Of a stretch of 32,743 nt of DNA, positions 1 through 32,713 are shown one piece after another; the stretch's first letter is position 1; each line of letters starts with the position of its first letter. A model generated the notes under the pieces. It saw nothing but the letters and a program-made list of their open reading frames with translations. It had not been told where the DNA came from and made no database searches. The position numbers and the translations under genes were made by a program. Source of the stretch: an uncultured Oscillochloris sp. (GTDB lineage Bacteria; Chloroflexota; Chloroflexia; Chloroflexales; Chloroflexaceae); assembly GCA_903877945.1 (NCBI GenBank), contig CAIRFY010000042.1, positions 1-32,743 on the forward strand, read 5' to 3'.

Positions 1-118
1 CCCAGCCCCCTCTCCCTGAGCGGGAGAGGGGGAGTCGGAGGCATCCTGCTGCGGAATCTCCCCTCTCCCCGTGAGGGAGAGGGGCAGGGGGTGAGGGCTG
101 AGCGGCAGCAGACTCCTT
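1..118. repeat. Family A dispersed GC-rich double-hairpin repeat, copy A1 (truncated by window edge)
   Basis: ccctctccctgagcgggagaggg and cccctctccccgtgagggagagggg hairpins; right end gtgagggctgagcggcagcagactcctt is the reverse complement of the left end of copy A3 (~10845). Confidence 0.85.
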
Positions 119-136
119 ACTTGAAAAGTATTGCTA

Positions 137-3949: not shown

Positions 3950-4093
3950 CAATACCTTTCAGCCCTCACCCCCCAGCCCCCTCTCCCTGAGCGGGAGAGG
4001 GGGAGTCGGACGCATCCTGATACGGAATCTCCCCTCTCCCCGTGAGGGTGAGGGGCAAGATCGATGCAGGATCGGCTTATGTGAAAGGTATTG
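3950..4093. repeat. Family A repeat, copy A2, with 12-bp perfect terminal inverted repeats
   Basis: caatacctttca (3950-3961) / tgaaaggtattg (4082-4093) bounding the GC-rich double-hairpin core. Confidence 0.8.
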
Positions 4094-9265: not shown

Positions 9266-9340
9266 TGTCACGCTGAGCGAAGCGAAGCGTCCCGGCGGGC
9301 AATACGGACGCCGGGACGTTTCGCTTCGCTCAGCGTGACA
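9266..9340. repeat. Large palindrome (family B), 32-bp arms with one mismatch and 11-nt spacer
   Basis: tgtcacgctgagcgaagcgaagcgtcccggcg (9266-9297) vs reverse complement of cgccgggacgtttcgcttcgctcagcgtgaca (9309-9340). Confidence 0.9.
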
Positions 9341-9380: not shown

Positions 9381-12300
9381 CTACTCCGCATCACGCCGCA
9401 GGGCCACCAGTTCGCGCAGTTGGGCGGTGCTCATCTCGGTGAGCCACGCCTCGCCCGCGCCGAGTACCTGAGCGGCCAGGGCGCGTTTGCCCTCGATCAT
9501 CTCGTCGATCTTCTCCTCAAGGGTGCCGCCGCAGACGAACTTATGAACCTGCACGTTCTTGGTCTGCCCGATGCGGAAGGCCCGGTCGGTGGCCTGATCC
9601 TCCACCGCCGGGTTCCACCAGCGGTCGAAGTGGAAGACGTGCGAGGCTCGGGTGAGGTTCAGGCCCACGCCACCCGCCTTGAGCGAGAGGATGAAGATCG
9701 GCGGCCCCTCGGGAGCCTGGAAGCGCCGCACCAGCCCGTCACGGGACTTGGCCGGGGTGCCGCCGTGCAGGAAGAGCGCCTCAACCGAAAGCTGTTTGCT
9801 CAGGTGGGCCTGGAGCATGCCGCCCATCTCGGCGAACTGGGTGAAGATCAGCGCCCGGTCGTCGGCGGCGATCACCTCCTCCAGCATCTCGTCGAGGCGG
9901 GCCAGTTTGCCCGAGCGGTCGTCGAGGGCCGAGCCATCTTTGAGAAAGTGGGCCGGGTGGTTGCAGATTTGCTTGAGCTTGGTGAGCATGGCCAGCACCA
10001 GGCCGCGCCGCCGCGCCTTCTCGCCCTCGTCGTCAGCGCCCTCGATCTGGTTCAGGGCGTCGCGCACAGTGGCCTCGTAGAGCGTGGCCTGCTCCTGGGT
10101 CAGCGGCACAAAAACCTTCATCTCCAGCTTGTCGGGCAGGTCGCTGATGATGCTGCGGTCGGTCTTCAGGCGGCGCAGGATAAAAGGCGCGGTGAGGCGG
10201 CGCAACTGGGTGGCGGCGTCGGCGTCACCGGCACGCTCAATCGGGCGGGCGAACGTGCGCCGGAACTCGGTCTCGCCGCCGAGGTAGCCGGGGTTGAGGA
10301 AGGCCATGATGCTCCACAGTTCGCTCAACCTGTTCTCCACCGGCGTGCCAGTGAGGGCCAGACGACCATCGGAGCGGATGGCGCGTGCCGCCTGGGCCTG
10401 ACGGGTTTCGCTATTCTTGATGTTCTGGGCCTCATCGAGCACAGCCAAACGCCAGGTCATTGCCGTGAGCGCCTCGCGGTCACGGGCGAGCAGCGGGTAA
10501 CTGGTGATCACCACATCGTGTTCAGTGGCCACCTGCTCTAGCTCATCGCCACGGTGACGCTCGGCACCCTGGTGGATGTGGACGCGCAGCGAGGGCGCGA
10601 AGCGGGCCAATTCGCGTTGCCAGTTGCCCACCACCGAAGTCGGACAGACCAGCAGGGTCGGCCCGCCATTGGGGGCGATGTCGCGCTCGTAGAGCAGGAG
10701 GGAGATGGCCTCGGCGGTATTGTGGCAGAGAATAGTGTTGGCGACGAAGTTGTGATGCTCTGTCACCTCTAGGTCATAGACCCAGCCCTCGTGCATCTGC
10801 GTTTCGACCGACCTGATCCGGCAGAAATGCACCTCCTGGTCGAAAGGAGTCTGCTGTCGCTCAGCCCTCACCCCCCAGCCCCCTCTCCATGAACGGGAGA
10901 GGGGGAGCCGAAGGCATCCTACTACGGTATCCCCCCTCTCCCCCGGTGGGAGAGGGGCAGGGGGTGAGGGGGTACGGTTGGCACTGAGAATGTCGTCCAT
11001 CCCTGCAATCACGCGGGCGAGGCTCTGGCGCGAGAATTGCTGCGAGCCATTCAGGTAGACGGTGTTGTGCATGCCAAACATCCGTACCGGCAGGCCCGTA
11101 GCACGAACGCTGTGCGCGACGAGCGTAGATGCGGGAACGCCCTCGACATTCGTGTTTGGCGTGCTGATGCAGATCTGCTCAAGAATCCGTTGCTTGGCTA
11201 CAATCCCAAACCCAACCTCGCGCAGGAATCTGCGCGCCGAGTTGCCACCGATCACGCCGATCTGGTAGGTGCGGTAGATGCCGGAGCCGTTTGTGGCCCG
11301 CTTACGTTTCTGCGAGACGCGCATCCAGATGCCGAGCCGCCGGAGGAGGAGGACAATCTGCTGCATAAGCAGTGACGAGGCCGAGGAGATCTCGATGCTC
11401 GCCATGCTTACGATGACAGATGCCTCCGCATCGAAATAGTTGCGCAGGAAGACCCGCACACCCTCGTCGTTGGCTTGCATGACGAGGTCGGGGATCACTT
11501 TGTCTGCCGATAGCTTGCCCCATTGGTAGCCGTGATTGACGAGAAATCGCTGGTAGGCGCGGCTTGTCCAGCGCAGGTAGGATGCTTTGTGTGCATACGT
11601 GAAGATGATGGCCGACGTGTTCAGCTTGAGGCCGTAGCGATCATCAATAGCATGGAGCGTCGCCCGCAGATCCTCCAGAATCGCCTGGTCGGCCTGTGTG
11701 AGTGTGACTGTGGCATTGTGGTGATTCTCGTGTCCCTCGGCGATCTGCCAGGCGAGTACCTTGATCAGATCGAGATCCGCCGGAGTGCCCTGCCATGTGA
11801 GGTGTGCGGGGACGCAGACGTAGTCGCCGGGAGCGAGATTATTCGTCCAACCCTGGTTGGTGAGGAGCCGGTGACGCCCGGTGATCGTGATGCTGCTGCC
11901 GTCTTCAAGCCTGACCGTGCGCAGCGACTCATTGATCCGCTGACGATAGAGGCGTCGTACCGACGCGGTAACGATCTTGCCGGTCGCTTCGTCAATCGCG
12001 TTCACCTGGAGCAAGGCTGACGGTTCGGCCCAGAAGCCCTCGCCATCGAAGGTCGTTGCGCCAGCGAACTGCTCCCAGATCTGTTCAGCGGGCCTGAGTG
12101 TGCCGTTGACGTAGATCAGACTTGAACCCAAAAGGCACTTGCCGAGTCCCATATCGTCTGCCAGACACGCCCCCATACCGAAGCGGCGCATAAAGGCCAT
12201 CCAGGCCAGGCCGCGTAGCTGGTAGGGGCGCAGCGTGCCGTGGAAGGCGTCAGGCTGGGGCAGGGGCGTAATCGACTCGGTGTTGGACAGCTCACGCAGG

Positions 12301-13889
12301 AGTATCCCCAGGTCGCCCTCGGCGTCCACGCCACCGAAGGCCAAGCCAGCGGGCAGCCCGTCGGAGATGCCGCCGAGCCCCATGCGCAGCAGTTCGGCCA
12401 TGCTCAGTTCGCCGCCCTTGGTGAACAGTTCCATCGCCTTGCGGGCCTGCTCGGGGTCGAGGACCACCCACTCGCCGCGCACCTGGACGAGGGGCTGCTT
12501 CAGCTCGACGAGGCGCTCGAACTCGGCGCGGTCGATTGGCTGCTCACCAACGCTGAGTTCCCAGCGAAAGTCGATCATACTCTGAAAGCTCAGGCGACCA
12601 GGGCCGTCGTTGCGCTTCATCTTACGCGGGGATGCTTTAGCGCGGGCCTTGAGGCGACCAGAGTTGCCCCACCACGCGGGTACCAGCACGCCAAAGCCGC
12701 TCTGTTCCAGCAGCGGAGCGGCGTCCTTGAGGAAGCTAAACGCCTCCTCCACATTCAGGCTGGCGTGGTCGGGAGCCTTGCCACGCAGGCTGCGCTCGAT
12801 AGGCGAGGCCAGACGGGCAGCAAAGCCCAGGCCGCGCAGCAGCCGCTCCTGCGGGTGGTCGAAGCGCCGGTCGAGGTAGGAGAAGTGCTGGCCGCGCTCG
12901 CGCCAGAGTTGGGCGGCGGGTACCAGCAGGCTCGGGTCGTCGGTGGCCTGGAGCAGGTAGCTGAGCGACCAGGGTTCACTGGCCTCAGTCGGCGGCTCCA
13001 GCCGGAAGGTGATGCGGAAGCTCTCGTCGCCGGCCACTTGCTCCTGACCGGCCCACGCCTGCCACGCCTTAAACAGTTCGTCGGCGGGGCGACCGCGCAG
13101 AGAGAGCCCAGGGTCGCGGCCAAGCAGGGCGACCATCCAGGCTGAGCCGGGAGTAGACGGGATGCTGCGCCACACGCTAAGCTGCGCGGAAGCGGTCGGG
13201 TCATCGGCGGCGATCTGACGGGCGAGGGCGTCCACGGCGGCGGCAAGGAAGCTATCGACGATGGTGCGCGGCGCGGGGGCGGCAGCCGGGTCTTCGGTGA
13301 TGGCGCGGCAGAGGGCGGGCATTCCGCTGCGCAGGGCCGCGATCTTACGGGCGGTGGCAGGGACAGGCCGTGGCTCCCAGCAGGCCCGCAGGCTGCCGCT
13401 CTCACGCACCAGCGCGGGGAGGATCTGCTGACCGGCCACCAGTTCCACGGCCAGCAGCGCGGCGGTGCGCCAGACTCGCAGGTCGGCCCCAATGCCGTGG
13501 TCGGGGGAGGGAGGCAGCAGCAGGTCAAGCGCCTGGGCCGCACTGAGCAGCAGGCCACGCACGCGCCAGGGGGCCAGAGTCGGCACGCCCTCGGGGATCT
13601 CGGCTCCGGCCTGGCGCAGTTCGCGCAGCGGCAAGGGCGCACCGCCCACCGAGGGCAGCCAGATCGTCTGCTCGGCGTGGGCCATCGTGCCCGCGCCCGG
13701 ATGTAGCTCGCGCAGGCGCTCATACAGCGCCTCGGGCTGAGCGTGGGCCGGGTGGGATAGGTGCCCTGGTCGTCGTCGCTGTCGTCCGCGCCGCGCCACC
13801 CGCTCGGCCAATTCGCCCCACAAGAAAAGCCGCCCCTCACTGGGTAGCCATGTGCCGTGTATCACGGCGGGGAGGGCCGCATTGGACAT
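9381..13889 (-). CDS. SNF2-family DEAD/DEAH helicase interrupted by an in-frame intein
   Basis: SNF2 motifs LRPYQLRGLAWMAFMRRFGMGACLADDMGLGK^T, VLDEAQNIKN, LTGTPVENRLSELWSIMAFLNPGYLG, FTQFAEMGGMLQ, ATDRAFRIGQTKNVQVHKFVCGGTLEEKIDEMIEGKRALA; intein splits GLGK from TAEAISLLL. Confidence 0.93.
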   Translation of the reverse strand: MSNAALPAVIHGTWLPSEGRLFLWGELAERVARRGRQRRRPGHLSHPAHAQPEALYERLRELHPGAGTMAHAEQTIWLPSVGGAPLPLRELRQAGAEIPEGVPTLAPWRVRGLLLSAAQALDLLLPPSPDHGIGADLRVWRTAALLAVELVAGQQILPALVRESGSLRACWEPRPVPATARKIAALRSGMPALCRAITEDPAAAPAPRTIVDSFLAAAVDALARQIAADDPTASAQLSVWRSIPSTPGSAWMVALLGRDPGLSLRGRPADELFKAWQAWAGQEQVAGDESFRITFRLEPPTEASEPWSLSYLLQATDDPSLLVPAAQLWRERGQHFSYLDRRFDHPQERLLRGLGFAARLASPIERSLRGKAPDHASLNVEEAFSFLKDAAPLLEQSGFGVLVPAWWGNSGRLKARAKASPRKMKRNDGPGRLSFQSMIDFRWELSVGEQPIDRAEFERLVELKQPLVQVRGEWVVLDPEQARKAMELFTKGGELSMAELLRMGLGGISDGLPAGLAFGGVDAEGDLGILLRELSNTESITPLPQPDAFHGTLRPYQLRGLAWMAFMRRFGMGACLADDMGLGKCLLGSSLIYVNGTLRPAEQIWEQFAGATTFDGEGFWAEPSALLQVNAIDEATGKIVTASVRRLYRQRINESLRTVRLEDGSSITITGRHRLLTNQGWTNNLAPGDYVCVPAHLTWQGTPADLDLIKVLAWQIAEGHENHHNATVTLTQADQAILEDLRATLHAIDDRYGLKLNTSAIIFTYAHKASYLRWTSRAYQRFLVNHGYQWGKLSADKVIPDLVMQANDEGVRVFLRNYFDAEASVIVSMASIEISSASSLLMQQIVLLLRRLGIWMRVSQKRKRATNGSGIYRTYQIGVIGGNSARRFLREVGFGIVAKQRILEQICISTPNTNVEGVPASTLVAHSVRATGLPVRMFGMHNTVYLNGSQQFSRQSLARVIAGMDDILSANRTPSPPAPLPPGERGDTVVGCLRLPLSRSWRGGWGVRAERQQTPFDQEVHFCRIRSVETQMHEGWVYDLEVTEHHNFVANTILCHNTAEAISLLLYERDIAPNGGPTLLVCPTSVVGNWQRELARFAPSLRVHIHQGAERHRGDELEQVATEHDVVITSYPLLARDREALTAMTWRLAVLDEAQNIKNSETRQAQAARAIRSDGRLALTGTPVENRLSELWSIMAFLNPGYLGGETEFRRTFARPIERAGDADAATQLRRLTAPFILRRLKTDRSIISDLPDKLEMKVFVPLTQEQATLYEATVRDALNQIEGADDEGEKARRRGLVLAMLTKLKQICNHPAHFLKDGSALDDRSGKLARLDEMLEEVIAADDRALIFTQFAEMGGMLQAHLSKQLSVEALFLHGGTPAKSRDGLVRRFQAPEGPPIFILSLKAGGVGLNLTRASHVFHFDRWWNPAVEDQATDRAFRIGQTKNVQVHKFVCGGTLEEKIDEMIEGKRALAAQVLGAGEAWLTEMSTAQLRELVALRRDAE
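10719..12137 (-). other. Intein with LAGLIDADG-type homing endonuclease (473 aa), inserted in Walker A between K and T
   Basis: N-terminal block CLLGSSLIYVNGTLRPAEQIWE; block B ITGRHRLLTNQGW; endonuclease motifs LIKVLAWQIAEGHE and FLRNYFDAEASV; block F/G HEGWVYDLEVTEHHNFVANTILCHN followed by +1 Thr. Confidence 0.95.
10841..10970. repeat. Family A repeat, copy A3, located inside the intein coding sequence
   Basis: aaggagtctgctgtcgctcagccctcaccccccagccccctctccatgaacgggagaggg...; encodes in-frame TPSPPAPLPPGERGDTVVGCLRLPLSRSWRGGWGVRAERQQTPFDQ on the minus strand. Confidence 0.88.
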
Positions 13890-13943: not shown

Positions 13944-14090
13944 GCACTACCGCAAAAGTCACGCTGTCTTCGTTTTCTTTGCGTCTTCGCGTCTTTGCGT
14001 CACGCCATACTCATGTGTTCGACGCAAAGGCGCAAAGACGCAAAGACTCTCATGTCGTTCAACGTGACAGCGTTCCTTTTGCGGTAGTGC
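13944..14090. repeat. Nested inverted repeat (family B)
   Basis: Outer arms gcactaccgcaaaa / ttttgcggtagtgc; inner arms ctttgcgtcttcgcgtctttgcgtc (13977-14001) vs gacgcaaaggcgcaaagacgcaaag (14021-14045), 23/25 complementary. Confidence 0.85.
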
Positions 14091-14950: not shown

Positions 14951-16012
14951 TCATCCCTTGTGCAGAGCCAGGTGCGCCTCGTGCAGCAGGCGCTCGGTCG
15001 TCTCCCAGCCGATGCAGCCATCGGTAAGTGAGACGCCGTATTTCAGGCTTGCGTGGTCGGCAGTGAGGGTTTGCTTGCCCTCGTTCAGATTGCTCTCGAC
15101 CATCACACCGACAATGGGGCCAACCTTGCGGATTATCTCGTCGATCACCGTGTGCAAGACGGCCTCCTGGCGGCGGAAGTCGCCGCTGGCGTTGGCGTGG
15201 CTACAGTCTACCATCACCGCCGGGCTCAGGTGGGCCTCGCGCATCAGGCGTGCGGCCTGCACCACATACTCCTCGTGATAATTTGGCTCGGCCCGCCCAC
15301 CGCGCAGGATGACAAAGCCGTCGGGGTTGCCGGTGGTCTTCACCACCGCGCTGCGCCCATCATTGTCGATGCCCAGGAAGCTGTGCTGCCCGGCGGCCGA
15401 GACGCAGGCGTGGACCGCAACCTGGATACCGCCATCGGTGCCGTTCTTAAAGCCTACCGGCATCGAGACACCGCTGGCCAGGGCACGGTGGGTCTGGGCC
15501 TCGGTGGTGCGTGCGCCGATGGTACCCAGGCTGATCTGGTCATCAATATACTGCGGGCTGATCGTATCGAGCATCTCGGTGGCCACAGGCATACCCATGC
15601 CATTAATCTCACGCAGCAGGGTGCGGGCGATCGTCAACCCGGCCCCCATATTAAAGCTGCCGTCGAGGTACGGGTCGTTGATCAGGCCGCGCCAGCCCAC
15701 CGTGGTGCGTGGTTTCTCCAGGTAGACGCGCATAATCAAAAAGAGTCGGTCGCCCAGATCGGCCTGGAGCGCCGTGAGGCGGCGGGCGTAGTCGATGGCG
15801 GCCGCAGGGTCGTGGATCGAGCACGGGCCGATCACCACCATCAGGCGAGGGTCTTCGCGACGTAGAATGCGCCGGATGGTCGCTCGCGAGTCGACCACCG
15901 TGCGGGCCACCGCATCGCTCACCGGTAACTGGGCCTTCAGTTCGCGTGGCGACAGGAAGGGCGTCAGTTCGCGGACGTGCAGGTTGGCAACTTTGTGCGT
16001 ATCGTTAGGCAT
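14951..16012 (-). CDS. 3-deoxy-7-phosphoheptulonate (DAHP) synthase, class I
   Basis: LMVVIGPCSIHDPAAAIDYA, MRVYLEKPRTTVGWRGLINDPYLDGSFNMGAGL, ARTTEAQTHRALASGVSMPVGFKNGTDG, VMVDCSHANASGDFRRQ; ATG at 16012 (MPNDTHKVANLHV). Confidence 0.93.
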   Translation of the reverse strand: MPNDTHKVANLHVRELTPFLSPRELKAQLPVSDAVARTVVDSRATIRRILRREDPRLMVVIGPCSIHDPAAAIDYARRLTALQADLGDRLFLIMRVYLEKPRTTVGWRGLINDPYLDGSFNMGAGLTIARTLLREINGMGMPVATEMLDTISPQYIDDQISLGTIGARTTEAQTHRALASGVSMPVGFKNGTDGGIQVAVHACVSAAGQHSFLGIDNDGRSAVVKTTGNPDGFVILRGGRAEPNYHEEYVVQAARLMREAHLSPAVMVDCSHANASGDFRRQEAVLHTVIDEIIRKVGPIVGVMVESNLNEGKQTLTADHASLKYGVSLTDGCIGWETTERLLHEAHLALHKG

Positions 16013-16033
16013 AGCATCGAGTCCTCTTGCTGC

Positions 16034-16083
16034 GGAATCTCCCCTCCTACCGTGGGCGAAGGGCCGGGGATGAGGGCCAAATG
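16034..16083. repeat. Degenerate/partial family A repeat, copy A4
   Basis: ggaatctcccctcctaccgtgggcgaagggccggggatgagggcca resembles the right half of A1/A2. Confidence 0.5.
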
Positions 16084-16154
16084 CCGCCAGTATACCTGAG
16101 AATCCCCGCCGTGGGATACAGCGTCGGGCGCATCGCAGGGCTGATGTACCGTCG

Positions 16155-18239
16155 CTACGTGTGCATGGTGCCTGATCCCGCGAGCAGCGCACGGACGCCC
16201 TCGTTATCGAGGCCGGGGGCGAAGAGCCAACCCTGGCCAAGGCTGCAGTGCAGGTCGCGCAGTTGCTCGTACTGCTGCTCGGTCTCGATCCCCTCGGCCA
16301 CTACATCCATGCCCAACGTGTGGGCCAGGCCGATGATCGTCTGCACGATCTCGTTCTGCCCGTCTGGCAGGCCGAGGCGACGGATAAACGAGCGGTCGAT
16401 CTTCAGCGTACTTACAGGAAAACTGTAGAGGTAGCTGAGGGACGAGTAGCCGGTGCCGAAGTCGTCAATACAGAGGTGGACGCCCAAGTCGCGGATGTGC
16501 CGCAGGATCTGGCCAGTCTCACCACTCAGATCAACAAAGTTGTGTTCAGTGATCTCAATCTTCAGGCTCGACGAGGGCAGCCCGCTGACCTCAAGGGCGG
16601 TGGCGATCTGACTCACAACATCGGGTTCGGCGAAGAGCCGGGCCGAGAGGTTCACGTTCACCGTGAGAGCCGGATCAGACGCGAATTCATCCTGCCATTC
16701 GCAGGCACGTTGGCATGCTTCGCGCAGCACCCACCAACTGATCGGCACGATCAGGCCCGTCTCCTCCGCAGTATCGAGGAAAGAGCCGGGGTAGAGCAGC
16801 CCGCGTTGCGGGTGCTGCCAGCGCAGCAGCGCCTCAAATCCATTTACCCTGCCGCCCGCCAGAGTGATGATCGGCTGGTAGTGGAGGCGCAATTCGCTGT
16901 GCGCCATCGCTTCGCGTAGGTCGCTCTCAAGCTGAAGATCCGCCATCGCCTGGGTGTGCATCGCGGGTGTGAAAATAGTGTGGCGATCCTTGCCGCTCAT
17001 CTTCGCATGGTACATCGCCGTGTCCGCATCGCGGATCATCTCGGCTGAACCGGTATACTCCAGCGCACTGGTAGTCACCCCAATACTGATGGTCGTGATC
17101 GCCTGGTGTTCGCCCAACATGATCGGTTCGGCAATTGCGCGCTGGATGCGGTTGACGATCACATCGACCGATTGATCGTCAAGAAGATTCTCGACTAGGA
17201 TGGTGAACTCGTCGCCGCCGAGACGGGCCACGGTATCGCCGGGCCGCAGACAGCCCTGGATACGCTCGGCAATAATGATGAGCAACTCGTCGCCCCTGGC
17301 GTGGCCCAGGCTGTCGTTAATCGTTTTGAAGCGATCAACGTCGATAAAGAACACCGCGAAGCGACGCTCCTTTTCGCGGCGGGCAATCGCGATAGTGCGG
17401 TCGAGTCGGTCGATGAAGAGGGCGCGGTTGGGCAGACCCGTCAGCAGATCGTGCAGGGCGTCGTGCTGAAGCTGCTGCTCAACCGCACGGCGGACGGTGA
17501 TGTCCGTCTGCGAGCCAGCGATGCGCGTGGCATGGTTGGTTTCGTCCCAGACCGCCATGCCCCGGCAGAGTACCCAGCGGTAGGCTCCGCTACAATGGCG
17601 GATGCGGTATTCGTACTCAAAAAAGCTGAGCAGCTTGTGGAAGTGAGCGGATAGACGCACCTTGAAGGTTTCCACGTCGTCGGGATGGATGCGGTCGATC
17701 CACTCAGCGGGCGTATCGCTGATCTCACCCTCATCAATGCCGAGCATAGCCTTCCAGCGCGGCGAGAGGTAGACCCTGTCCGTCAGAAGATCCCAGTCCC
17801 ACAGGCCATCGTTCGCCCCGCGTGCGGCCAGGGCGTAGCGCTCTTCGCTCTGGCGCAAAGCCATCTCGGCGCTGCGGGCGGCGCTCATGTCACGAATGAT
17901 GGCCATGCCGCCGCAGATCGCGCCGTTGTCATCGATCTGCGGGCGGGCGGTGATGCTGAGCCAGCGCCCGGTGGGCAGAAAGAACTCGGCGGCATCGGTC
18001 GCGACCCCGACAATCGCACGGGCCAGCGGCGTATCGGCGAGCGGGCAAGGGGTGCGCTGGTCGGGCAGGCAGAGCGAGGCCAGGGCAGTCAGTGGATCTG
18101 CGCCGAGGATCTGGATTGCCGCCGGGCTGACACTCACCAGATCGCCGACCCTATCTACCACCACTACCCCATCCCCCATGCTATCGAGGATGGACTGTAG
18201 CACATCCGCCTGGGTTCGTTCTACCATAGGTATAGTCAC
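16155..18239 (-). CDS. PAS-GGDEF-EAL diguanylate cyclase/phosphodiesterase
   Basis: RLGGDEFTILVEN; GFEALLRWQHPQRGLLYPG; IDDFGTGYSSLSYLYSFPVSTLKIDRSFI; PAS region ERYALAARGANDGLWDWDLLTDRVYLSPRWKAMLG. Start may be 18227 (MVERTQ). Confidence 0.93.
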   Translation of the reverse strand: MTIPMVERTQADVLQSILDSMGDGVVVVDRVGDLVSVSPAAIQILGADPLTALASLCLPDQRTPCPLADTPLARAIVGVATDAAEFFLPTGRWLSITARPQIDDNGAICGGMAIIRDMSAARSAEMALRQSEERYALAARGANDGLWDWDLLTDRVYLSPRWKAMLGIDEGEISDTPAEWIDRIHPDDVETFKVRLSAHFHKLLSFFEYEYRIRHCSGAYRWVLCRGMAVWDETNHATRIAGSQTDITVRRAVEQQLQHDALHDLLTGLPNRALFIDRLDRTIAIARREKERRFAVFFIDVDRFKTINDSLGHARGDELLIIIAERIQGCLRPGDTVARLGGDEFTILVENLLDDQSVDVIVNRIQRAIAEPIMLGEHQAITTISIGVTTSALEYTGSAEMIRDADTAMYHAKMSGKDRHTIFTPAMHTQAMADLQLESDLREAMAHSELRLHYQPIITLAGGRVNGFEALLRWQHPQRGLLYPGSFLDTAEETGLIVPISWWVLREACQRACEWQDEFASDPALTVNVNLSARLFAEPDVVSQIATALEVSGLPSSSLKIEITEHNFVDLSGETGQILRHIRDLGVHLCIDDFGTGYSSLSYLYSFPVSTLKIDRSFIRRLGLPDGQNEIVQTIIGLAHTLGMDVVAEGIETEQQYEQLRDLHCSLGQGWLFAPGLDNEGVRALLAGSGTMHT

Positions 18240-18323: not shown

Positions 18324-18446
18324 ATGTTTCAAAATGGGCACATTCAGATTTACAGTCTTGCGATGCTGCGCCGAGGCGATGACGCGCTCGTATCGAGTCA
18401 TCGCCTCATCGCCTCGGCGCTGAACTGTCACGCTAGATTGAAACAT
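18324..18446. repeat. Family B nested palindromic repeat
   Basis: Outer atgtttcaa (18324-18332)/ttgaaacat (18438-18446); inner gcgccgaggcgatga (18368-18382)/tcatcgcctcggcgc (18406-18420); contains gaactgtcacgct. Confidence 0.8.
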
Positions 18447-21319: not shown

Positions 21320-21337
21320 TGTAACGTCGCGTGATTG

Positions 21338-21393
21338 CCGCTCAGCCCTCACCCCCCAGCCCCCTCTCCCCGTGAGGGAGAGGGGCAGGGGGC
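21338..21393. repeat. Family A repeat, copy A5 (short form)
   Basis: ttgccgctcagccctcaccccccagccccctctccccgtgagggagaggggcaggggg. Confidence 0.8.
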
Positions 21394-21465: not shown

Positions 21466-22701
21466 ATGACAACACTGCCGGAAGGCTTCACCATCCTGGC
21501 CATAGAGACATCCTGCGACGAGACGGCGGCGGCCGTGGTGCGCGGCGGGCGCACCATCCTGTCCAACGTCGTCGCCTCACAGATGGACATGCATAGCCGC
21601 TACGGCGGTGTAGTGCCCGAGGTCGCCTCGCGCCAGCACATCATCAGCCTGGTTCCCGTGGTGCGCGAGGCGCTGGCGGCGCTGCCCGGCGGCTGGGCCG
21701 ATATTCACGCGGTGGCCGCCACCCACGGCCCTGGACTCAGCGGCGCGCTGCTCACCGGACTCAACGCCGCCAAGGCTATCGCCTGGCAGCGTGGTCTGCC
21801 CTTCGTGGGCGTGAACCACCTGGAGTCGCATATCTACGCGAGTTGGCTGGATGTTGATGACGGAGTGACAAAGCAACCGGGCGATAAGGTGACAGATCTC
21901 ACCCCCTCACCCCGTCACCCCCTTACCCCGTCACCCCCTCACCTCGTCACCCCCTCACCCCCTCACCTCGTCACCCCCTCACCCCCCGAGTTCCCCCTCG
22001 TCGCCCTGGTGGTCTCCGGCGGTCACACGCTGCTGGCCCTGCTGCGCGGCCACGGCGACTACACGATCCTCGGGCAGACCCGCGACGACGCAGTGGGTGA
22101 GGCGTTCGATAAGGTGGCCCGCATCCTGGGCCTGGGCTACCCCGGTGGCCCGGCCATTCAGCAGGTCGCCCAGAGCGCCCAGCCGCCCGTCGGTGTGCTA
22201 CCCCGCGCCTGGTTGCGCGACAGCTACGACTTCTCGTTCAGCGGCCTGAAGACCGCTGTGCTTCACAAGGTACAGGAGCGCCAGGATCGCCAGGATCGCC
22301 TGCCGAAAGTTGACGTTAAAGCGAAGGCTGGTCGCCCGGTGCTTGGCTCCCAGCCTCCCCCAGTCCCTAGCCCTCCGCCCCCCCTCGACGCTGCCTGGGT
22401 CGCCCAGATGGCCTACGCCTTCCAGGAGTCGGTGGTGGACGTACTCTCGACCAAGACGGTTGATGCTGCGCGTCAGCACGGGGCGACCGCGATCATCCTG
22501 GCTGGCGGGGTGGCCGCCAACACCCGCCTGCGCAGCGAACTCTCCCGCCGCGCTGCGGTGCCCGTGCGCTTCCCGCCGATTGCGCTCTGCACCGATAACG
22601 CGGCTATGGTCGCCGCCGCCGCCTTCTATCGCTTCGCGGCTGGGGCGCAGAGCGGGTGGGATCTGGATGTGACGCCGAATCTGAAGCTGGGTATGTCCTA
22701 G
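21466..22701 (+). CDS. tsaD: tRNA N6-adenosine threonylcarbamoyltransferase TsaD, with two lineage-specific insertions
   Basis: ILAIETSCDETAAAVVRGG...HSRYGGVVPEVASRQHI...HGPGLSGALLTGLNAAKAIAW...VNHLESHIYASWL...FPLVALVVSGGHTLL...YDFSFSGLKTAVLH...LAGGVAANTRLR...CTDNAAMVAAA. Confidence 0.96.
   Translation: MTTLPEGFTILAIETSCDETAAAVVRGGRTILSNVVASQMDMHSRYGGVVPEVASRQHIISLVPVVREALAALPGGWADIHAVAATHGPGLSGALLTGLNAAKAIAWQRGLPFVGVNHLESHIYASWLDVDDGVTKQPGDKVTDLTPSPRHPLTPSPPHLVTPSPPHLVTPSPPEFPLVALVVSGGHTLLALLRGHGDYTILGQTRDDAVGEAFDKVARILGLGYPGGPAIQQVAQSAQPPVGVLPRAWLRDSYDFSFSGLKTAVLHKVQERQDRQDRLPKVDVKAKAGRPVLGSQPPPVPSPPPPLDAAWVAQMAYAFQESVVDVLSTKTVDAARQHGATAIILAGGVAANTRLRSELSRRAAVPVRFPPIALCTDNAAMVAAAAFYRFAAGAQSGWDLDVTPNLKLGMS
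21864..21988. repeat. 8-bp (ACCCCSTC/GTCACCNN-type) tandem repeat inserted in the tsaD coding sequence
   Basis: accccctc/accccgtc/acctcgtc units preceded by inverted GTGAC motifs; encodes TPSPPHLVTPSPPHLVTPSPP. Confidence 0.88.
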
Positions 22702-22730: not shown

Positions 22731-22789
22731 GCCCCCTCACCCCCGGCCCCTCTCCCTCACGGGGAGAGGGGGCTGGGGGGTGAGGGCCG
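22731..22789. repeat. Family A repeat, copy A6, between convergent tsaD and hisN (possible terminator)
   Basis: gccccctcacccccggcccctctccctcacggggagagggggctggggggtgagggcc, long hairpin. Confidence 0.78.
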
Positions 22790-22809
22790 TTCGGCGGTGG
22801 CCTCGTGTC

Positions 22810-23610: not shown

Positions 23611-23686
23611 GAGGACGCGAGGACACGATACGAGTGCCTCATCGCGTCCTCGCCTCGTCGCCGAACTGTCACGCTGAATTGAAACC
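23611..23686. repeat. Family B palindromic repeat
   Basis: gaggacgcga (23611-23620)/tcgcgtcctc (23642-23651); ccgaactgtcacgctgaattgaaacc matches the right side of the 18.3-kb copy. Confidence 0.75.
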
Positions 23687-23700
23687 TTGTCTTGTAGCGA

Positions 23701-23770
23701 AATCCACAATCCACAATCCACAATCCACAATCCACAATCCACAATCCACAATCCACAATCCACAATCCAC
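23701..23770. repeat. Perfect heptanucleotide tandem array (AATCCAC)x10
   Basis: Ten uninterrupted copies of aatccac between kinase stop (23773) and hisN. Confidence 0.98.
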
Positions 23771-23772
23771 AC

Positions 23773-27356
<3,584 letters not shown>

Positions 27357-31112: not shown

Positions 31113-31161
31113 ATTACGAAGAATGTAGACATGAAACCCTGCGTAAAAAGTGAGGTGGGCG

Positions 31162-32433
31162 ATGTCGCACCCGATGAATGCGTTTATGGCCCGGCTCCAG
31201 CACGTAGGTGTGGGCGTGATCAGCGGATGCTATACACCGGCGACGATTGCCCAACTCGCACAAAGCCTCGGTCGGTTGGCCTTTTTCGGTGATGAGAGTG
31301 TCTTGTTGGTAGCCGGCGGCGATCAGCAGCGGGCCTGGGCCGACCTAGCGCTGCGCGGGGTGGATGTCCAGGTACGGCGGATAGATCTGTTGGCCGCGCC
31401 GAACGTGGGAACGGGCTTTATCCTGATCGGCGTCGGCCCGGCCCACGGCTTCGCCCTGCTGGCCTACCCGATTGAGCCGGTGGAACGCGATGAGAGCGTG
31501 CGACTGCACGATGTATGCTGGTGTGTTAGCCCGGCGGCTCTGCGCGAACTCGCCGACATGCTGCACGAGGCAATCAGTGCCGATGTGATCCGGCGAATTG
31601 CCGCGCTCCACGCCCCCGCATCCGAGCTACTGCTGCGCCTGAGCAGCAACCTGCTCGACTTCGCCGCCCGCCAGCACAGCACCCTCGGTGTGGCCAACCG
31701 CGCGCTTAGTGAGCGCATGCGCAACCAGGAGGATCAGACGCGCATGATCGTCCACGATATGCGTGCGCCTCTGCATACGCTGCTGATCAGCATCAAGGCT
31801 CTCCAGCGCCAACGCTTTGACCCTGACGGCCAGAACGAGTTGCTTGGCGTGGCCAGGGATAGCGCCAGTTACCTGCTGACCCTCACCGAGACGGTGCTGG
31901 ACTCAGCGCGCCTGGAGACTAACGACTGGTCGCTGAAGCGCCAGCCGGTGCGCCTGATCAACCTGGTGCAATCGGTATGCGACCCGCTGGAGGTTGCGGC
32001 GCGTCCAGATCAGGCTCGGCTGCGGCATATGGTGGCCGACGATCTGCCGATGATCTGGATCGACCGCACCCTGATGGAGCGCGTATTGATGAACCTGATC
32101 ACCAACGCGATTAAGTACACCCCGGCCAGCGGCGAAATCAGCGTGACGGCCCGGCTGATCCACGATGGTCATACGGTTGAGATGAGCGTGAGCGACTCGG
32201 GCCAGGGCATCTCGAAAGAGGCGCAGGCCCACATCTTTGAGCGATTCTACCAAGCCAACGAGAACGACCGTCGTCGTGGTACGGGCCTGGGCCTCTACTT
32301 CTGTCGGCTCGCTGTGGAAGCTCACGGCGGTAGTATCGCGGTGCAAAGCGCGGTGAGCCAGGGTAGTTCCTTTATTATTTCGCTCCCGATTACCACTGGA
32401 GGGGGTGACAGGGTGACATTGGTGACAGGGTGA
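31162..32433 (+). CDS. Sensor histidine kinase with N-terminal DICT-like sensory region
   Basis: DQTRMIVHDMRAPLHTLLISIKAL H-box; NLITNAIKYTPASGEI; DSGQGISKEAQAHIFERFYQ; GTGLGLYFCRLAVEAHGG. N-terminus resembles DICT domains (moderate). Confidence 0.88.
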   Translation: MSHPMNAFMARLQHVGVGVISGCYTPATIAQLAQSLGRLAFFGDESVLLVAGGDQQRAWADLALRGVDVQVRRIDLLAAPNVGTGFILIGVGPAHGFALLAYPIEPVERDESVRLHDVCWCVSPAALRELADMLHEAISADVIRRIAALHAPASELLLRLSSNLLDFAARQHSTLGVANRALSERMRNQEDQTRMIVHDMRAPLHTLLISIKALQRQRFDPDGQNELLGVARDSASYLLTLTETVLDSARLETNDWSLKRQPVRLINLVQSVCDPLEVAARPDQARLRHMVADDLPMIWIDRTLMERVLMNLITNAIKYTPASGEISVTARLIHDGHTVEMSVSDSGQGISKEAQAHIFERFYQANENDRRRGTGLGLYFCRLAVEAHGGSIAVQSAVSQGSSFIISLPITTGGGDRVTLVTG

Positions 32434-32671
32434 CTTGGTGACTTGGTGACTCCCCGTCACCCCGTCACCCCGTCACCGCGTCACCCCGTCACCGCGTCAC
32501 CCCGTCACCCCGTCACCGTGTCACCCCGTCACCGCGTCACCGCGTCACCGCGTCACCCCGTCACCCCGTCACCCCGTCACCGCATCACCGCGTCACCCCG
32601 TCACCCCGTCACCCCGTCACCGCATCACCGCGTCACCGCGTCACCCCGTCACCCCGTCACCCCGTCACCGT
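32404..32671. repeat. 8-bp tandem array with inverted lead-in: (GGTGACNN)~6 then (GTCACCNN)27
   Basis: Twenty-seven contiguous 8-bp units gtcaccCC/GC/GT from 32456 to 32671, preceded by reverse-orientation ggtgacNN units overlapping the kinase stop. Confidence 0.95.
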
Positions 32672-32684
32672 GAAGGATACAGGT

Positions 32685-32713
32685 TTGACGGTCTGTGTCA
32701 CGGATGCTATGAT
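32685..32713 (+). promoter_or_regulatory. Strong sigma70-like promoter directing transcription out of the window
   Basis: TTGACG (32685-32690), 17-nt spacer, TGC-extended TATGAT (32708-32713). Confidence 0.65.

Follow-up and report, generated by a model that had tools for sequence, protein, structure and literature searches.

A translated MITE-type repeat in the place of a conserved accessory-domain segment of a helicase intein in a Chloroflexota-type bacterium

The Rickettsia palindromic elements are hairpin repeats of about 110-190 bp, with a preferred open frame and a recurrent peptide found in unrelated genes (PMC10969869). In Coxiella burnetii, the bacterial MITEs known as QMITEs at times lie in frame within ORFs and, in the portions of that source considered here, the cases are terminal extensions or hypothetical ORFs, none of them in an intein (PMC5896051). 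A non-autonomous DNA repeat within a self-splicing element is represented by the MITEtron of Thiomargarita dsrA (PMC4853749), the host being a group I intron removed by RNA splicing and the repeat remaining untranslated. Regarding inteins with a homing endonuclease (HEN), TliVMA, PI-PfuI and PI-PkoII have the fold order HINT-HEN-accessory-HINT, in which the accessory domain connects the HEN to the C-terminal HINT part, as in 7qss (PMC8966425). When the accessory domain of TliVMA is removed, both folds and the cleavage of the homing site remain with an altered cleavage profile, whereas removal of the whole HEN impairs splicing; according to the same authors, inteins acquire accessory domains 'by yet unknown mechanisms' (PMC8966425).

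The locus presented here has features of each of these systems. It is likened to the Rickettsia palindromic elements by these features and not by membership, phylum and sequence being different; here the host segment belongs to a selfish spliced element, native codons are replaced and not only interrupted, and in-gene cases are a small minority of the copies. In the intein, unlike in the MITEtron, the repeat is part of the translated sequence and protein splicing would remove it, and in contrast to TliVMA, PI-PfuI and PI-PkoII the accessory domain is partly repeat-encoded and predicted to be disordered. While in-frame MITEs are already known, no MITE inside an intein was found in the literature searched (open PMC set).

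The window, i.e. the whole stretch of 32,743 nucleotides that was analysed, lies on contig C42 of a 4.5 Mb draft genome in 696 contigs (G000). On the reverse strand, positions 9381-13889 encode an intein-bearing Snf2-family helicase of 1502 aa, recognised from its translation, from Pfam matches (SNF2-rel_dom, DUF3670, Helicase_C, Intein_splicing and LAGLIDADG_3) and from NCBIfam matches to the sll1366 family 'intein-prone helicase' and to the end models intein_Nterm and intein_Cterm. The intein (10719-12137, reverse strand; helicase residues 585-1057) counts 473 aa from C1 to a terminal HN followed by T and is inserted after DDMGLGK of the helicase Walker A motif; its limits come from the Pfam and NCBIfam matches and from comparison with an intein-free orthologous helicase in genome G041, for which the match begins directly after the insertion point.

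All parts of this intein lie on the reverse strand. The N-terminal splicing (HINT) part (11799-12137; residues 1-113) carries C1 and the block-B His89, as established from a 33-sequence alignment and from an AF2 model with pLDDT of about 90-97. The LAGLIDADG HEN (11208-11777; residues 121-310) is delimited by PF14528 and by invariant columns, and keeps the motifs AEG (133-135) and FDAE (235-238), E134, G135, F235 and E238 being invariant in the same alignment. Further on, an orthologue-conserved part of the accessory domain remains (10989-11159; residues 327-383, NTNVEG...GMDDI, from the orthologue alignment), and the C-terminal splicing strands, (F)DQEV...HNFVANTILCHN, occupy 10719-10843 (TIGR01443; pLDDT 91-96; alignment). 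The presence of C1, of the block-B His, of a terminal His-Asn then Thr/Ser/Cys and of LAGLIDADG motifs is what characterises a LAGLIDADG intein. Since C1, His89, His472 and Asn473, of which the last two are invariant in the 33-sequence alignment, are retained along with AEG and FDAE, it is plausible that the window intein is still able to splice. The same Snf2 allele is common to cyanobacteria, ANME archaea, Acidobacteria and actinomycetes at 43-57% identity (L105-L157), a distribution pointing to wide horizontal spread. A relative at about 35% resides in another host gene, a UvrD/PcrA helicase, also at the Walker A motif (L064, L065 and L150), the L065 copy having a frameshift within the endonuclease.

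Between the remaining accessory-domain part and the C-terminal strands, residues 384-431 (LSANRTPSPPAPLPPGERGD...GVRAERQQTP; 10844-10988, reverse strand) are derived from a repeat, as seen by BLAST, copy alignment, nhmmer, orthologue alignment and pLDDT. The DNA derived from the repeat extends over 10844 to about 10972, including a double-hairpin core at 10859-10970, and probably reaches 10988, with CTCAGTGCCAACCGTACC matching the flanks of the repeat. The initial annotation had proposed that a dispersed GC-rich repeat is read in frame within the intein, and this stands: the DNA at 10841-10975 has at least 40 matches in its own genome with 85-91% identity over about 110-130 nt (best E 6.5e-42; 40 of 748 first-look candidates were scored), and the helicase ORF stays open across the repeat with intein matches on both sides. 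The 46-residue peptide then quoted is letter-perfect, but its final FDQ is native, orthologues having (L)LDQEV there. The RNA fold of this copy reaches -82.6 kcal/mol against -65.4 for shuffles (z -4.0), and residues 388-412, which are repeat-encoded, have pLDDT below 50 in the AF2 model of the window intein and are predicted to be disordered.

In copies aligned from four genomes, the repeat core consists of about 110 nt, namely two GC-rich hairpins and a spacer (GATTCCGCAGCAGGATGC...). The core is open in one frame per strand, in 36 and 37 of the 49 full copies, any other frame being open in at most 15; the intein reads the first of these two frames. Several intergenic copies carry TIRs outside the core, of at least two types, AATACYTTTCRNATAAG and CAGGGCNTNTGCAAAGTCG, which measure 17-19 bp in the best intergenic relatives. 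The type-1 TIR AATACTTTTCRAATAAG occurs 99 times in forward and 112 times in reverse orientation in the genome, against 0 for a reversed-pattern control, and among the matches listed only close pairs are found; pairs of this TIR bound elements of 111-181 bp. The repeats, 111-189 bp in size overall, are multi-copy, non-coding and too short for a transposase, and direct duplications of about 10 bp (GATCTAAACC, GAGCTAGGAG and GCCCTAAACC), with CTA or TTA near the centre, border 7 of 16 TIR-bounded elements in a strict test. By their TIRs, target duplications and short multi-copy non-coding sequence, the intergenic relatives are MITE-like, which agrees with the mobile nature first ascribed to the repeat. 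In the copy alignment, the intein copy is without both TIRs and no target duplication is recognisable there; transposition at the intein is consequently deduced from these relatives. The tag typical of REP sequences (GTAG/CGTC at the foot of a palindrome of 20-40 bp) is absent, the consensus core starting with CCCTCACCCCC and ending with GGGGTGAGGGCTGAGCG, and an Rfam search of the hairpins returned only sub-threshold chance matches to miRNAs. The TIRs of elements that contain the double-hairpin core (window 1-132; L002, L015, L019 and L022) fall into two unrelated kinds at least, and probably three, of which the L022 element combines two, as though the core could pass from one MITE backbone to another.

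Besides the intein copy, the window contains a copy at 1-132 (forward strand; repeat search, nhmmer and TIR pattern), matched over 1-97/118 and with a type-1 TIR at 116-132, a core copy at 3959-4059 (reverse strand; repeat search and nhmmer), and a half copy at 21340-21392 (reverse strand; repeat search and nhmmer) that forms an inverted pair with another at 22735-22771 (93% over 21337-21392 / 22740-22795). Other repeats are also encountered. The helicase gene is flanked by near-perfect inverted repeats at 9266-9340 (32-nt arms, 97%) and 13944-14090 (26-nt arms, 92%), which have related flanks, GCA(A/C)TACCGCA(T/A)AAGTCACGCTGTC, and probably make up a second MITE-like family. An 8-nt tandem repeat forms long arrays at 32412-32690, overlapping the end of the ORF at 31150-32433, and at 21870-22029. 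A 72-nt repeat pair, 18373-18444 / 23614-23685, ends with CTGTCACGCTNNATTGAAAC, the second member being followed by a tandem AATCCAC array (23687-23777).

In the search for orthologous inteins, an alignment of four inteins was used as query against 85,462 species genomes and led to 50 encoding loci, the majority being inteins of the window type (Microcoleus, Nostoc, Scytonema and other cyanobacteria, ANME/Methanosarcinales archaea, Chloracidobacterium and Actinomadura); three further contigs came from IMG/VR. A single-sequence search of genome contigs gave no relative. In 400 genomes sampled across the phylum, no additional close intein was detected, and none related was found in phages, plasmids giving weak partial matches only. 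Repeat-free orthologues, the comparison suggested at the outset as a possible refutation, thus exist in quantity, an outcome in favour of the initial annotation: all 20 full-length orthologous inteins aligned (461-469 aa; from cyanobacteria, ANME archaea, Acidobacteria, actinomycetes and viral contigs) are without the repeat, as is the UvrD-gene relative L150. Between ...GMxxIxSG and DQEVFYC, the orthologues have about 42 residues, [A/S]EQEYRQLKPSKWTxQTLEAYxxLDxxxLxxxRxxLQxLL, of which Y392, W400, L405 and L423 each reach a conservation of at least 97% in a set of 31 relatives.

It is the place of these residues, between the HEN and the C-terminal splicing strands, that the repeat-derived residues 384-431 occupy in the window intein. 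Since the native segment of the orthologues is missing there, the comparison indicates that the repeat replaced a conserved intein segment, by insertion and deletion, rather than being merely inserted. A simple insertion is ruled out by the loss of the roughly 42 native residues, and the earlier statement that the repeat had invaded the intein therefore holds for a mobile-type repeat lying in frame but not for an insertion into otherwise intact sequence; the overall length of 473 aa masks the replacement. In the AF2 model of a Microcoleus orthologue (mean pLDDT 93.5), the native segment forms three helices with pLDDT 92-95, while the model of the window intein has a mean of 85.2 with HINT and HEN mostly above 90; the best structural neighbours of both models are the HEN inteins 7qss (TliVMA), 1dq3 (PI-PfuI) and 2cw7. 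The proposition that the intein inherited this segment as a fast-evolving part of its own, with no more than a resemblance to the repeat, could draw on the diversity of intein accessory domains (PMC8966425), yet it is scarcely credible in view of about 90% DNA identity to dispersed repeats and of a different, conserved segment in all aligned orthologues from two domains of life.

A second orthologous intein with a repeat, which the initial annotation did not foresee, is found at the same site in a related genus, in G042, an uncultured Oscillochloris MAG of the same genus as G041 (CAIRDL010000539.1). It measures 411 aa, shares 66% aa identity with the window intein over the N-terminal HINT part and the HEN, and has SPSLLPSLAGREEDRIRMRQVGSPLPTGEGLGVRAESAV, from another repeat subfamily, instead of the whole accessory domain (about 100 residues). 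The existence of a like arrangement in two separately assembled genomes weighs against an assembly artefact, in which the repeat would misjoin reads and hide the native segment. Such an error could be expected from a MAG-type draft in 696 contigs with hundreds of repeat candidates, assemblies being prone to err at repeats, which does count against our preferred explanation; moreover, the related intein of G043 (57%) breaks off at a contig edge inside the intein. However, on either side of the repeat the frame holds, through to the expected C-terminal splicing block and extein, and the window copy, at 88.5% to the consensus of its genome (11.5% away), is lower than every other copy compared, such copy-specific differences arguing against a collapsed repeat. 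An artefact is accordingly considered very unlikely.

A repeat-for-segment replacement being retained as the preferred reading, the relation between the two inteins has to be considered. Outside the repeat, 62% of fourfold sites differ between them, i.e. these sites are saturated, yet each repeat is within about 14% of copies in its own genome; from this comparison, both repeats in their present form postdate the divergence of the two inteins, and simple vertical descent of one repeat into both is rejected. There is an even chance, in our estimation, that each intein took a repeat from its own genome independently at the same permissive junction. Beyond the saturated fourfold sites, this is favoured by the G042 insert (L069:5155-5265) being 86-89% identical to two other G042 copies, the flank GAGTCGGCTGCAA included, and only 72.5% to the window copy, by right flanks that belong to the subfamilies of the respective genomes (GCGGAGTCGGCTGtAA for G042; CAGCAGACTCCTT, of the G000 type, for the window copy) and by left junctions about 60 codons apart. 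Less easily accommodated by two insertions are right junctions that differ by no more than about 3 nt, identical orientation and frame, and the restriction of the repeat to loci of this one allele among 30 splicing-domain loci in 11 related genomes. These same observations, with the other fetched intein loci being repeat-free, would suit a single ancestral insertion followed in each lineage by gene conversion from local repeats and, in G042, by extension through deletion. Such a history is considered somewhat less probable; conversion must then also have swapped the subterminal flanks, and synonymous saturation makes a plainly inherited copy very unlikely. Both histories are compatible with replacement of the native segment by a repeat.

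Translation of the repeat is not confined to the intein. The peptide RAERQQTP, previously reported to be encoded elsewhere, is indeed readable as VRAERQQTP at 91-118 (forward strand) in the first copy of the window, and it is translated in contig C143 of the same genome, where a full copy (L194:1251-1362) lies in the same frame as in the intein, in a loop between helices of a membrane protein (776 aa). The peptide of this copy, PSPPAPLPHGERGDSATGSVRLPLSRSGRGGWGVRAERQQTPYLKRIG, includes one terminal repeat; the intein and the membrane protein have in common PSPPAPLPxGERGD...RGGWGVRAERQQTP, while in G042, G016 and G010 the orthologous proteins show no more than a short loop at the repeat site. 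In the G002 orthologue, a different tandem peptide (RAQQSAVDGI...) is present in the same loop. The likeness to Rickettsia palindromic elements drawn in the initial annotation is borne out, since each orientation has a single open frame and the same peptide comes from a second complete copy that is in frame. In addition, contig C408 (L196:13022-13072) has an in-frame half copy in a CobB-like protein, in the variable linker between the CbiA and GATase_3 domains; the same linker has tandem SAVSGQP repeats in the G015 orthologue. The DAHP synthase ORF (14951-16240) bears another half copy (16020-16076, reverse strand; nhmmer) in its 5' extension; this copy probably precedes the true start and was left out of the translated count. 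Long 'ORFs' over copies in C571, C415 and C276 of the source genome and in loci of G017, G004 and G015 were rejected as spurious frames and not counted. Among 45 near-full copies, counted in 267 kb selected for containing copies, the convincing in-gene cases are the intein and the C143 protein. Since most copies are outside such frames, the in-frame ones are, as far as their positions indicate, survivors in loops and linkers, with no sign of directed insertion.

Altogether, we hold it to be quite probable that the C-terminal half of the intein accessory domain gave way to a MITE-type repeat belonging to this genome, which was tolerated there, being spliced out so that the mature helicase is unchanged. 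A MITE-type element would have entered accessory-domain codons, after which deletions, perhaps promoted by the hairpins, would have taken out about 42 neighbouring native codons as well as the terminal repeats. The frame would have survived because the repeat offers a single open frame in either orientation and because helicase could go on being made from in-frame products alone. The position may be tolerant because the accessory domain would serve DNA recognition rather than splicing and because the repeat-encoded segment would be excised with the intein, leaving the mature helicase unaffected; the likely cost would be homing that is lost, weakened or changed. Two further observations count against this explanation. 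The Anaerolinea sp. CH6 intein (L152:2203-2901), also located at this Snf2 site, is deprived of most of its endonuclease yet retains the KPRSKWT...LD segment; as this is exactly the segment lost in the window intein, it may matter for splicing and could mean that the segment helps this reaction. The impaired splicing of TliVMA upon HEN removal (PMC8966425) may, by analogy, weigh in the same direction.

As a broader and, at this stage, unlikely extension, the junction between endonuclease and splicing domain could be a safe landing site, as any in-frame entrant would be spliced out with the intein, and mobile repeats could repeatedly rewrite accessory domains as one route for the exchange of DNA-recognition modules. 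More immediately, the locus represents a selfish DNA repeat that is housed by a selfish protein element, is translated with it and presumably disappears upon protein splicing, in other words one selfish element remodelled by another in a Chloroflexota-type bacterium. It offers a natural, datable case of loss or exchange of an endonuclease-side module of an intein, a process for which the structural study named no mechanism (PMC8966425). It also extends in-frame repeats like the Rickettsia palindromic elements beyond the endosymbionts of their original description, with three genes in one Chloroflexota-type genome.
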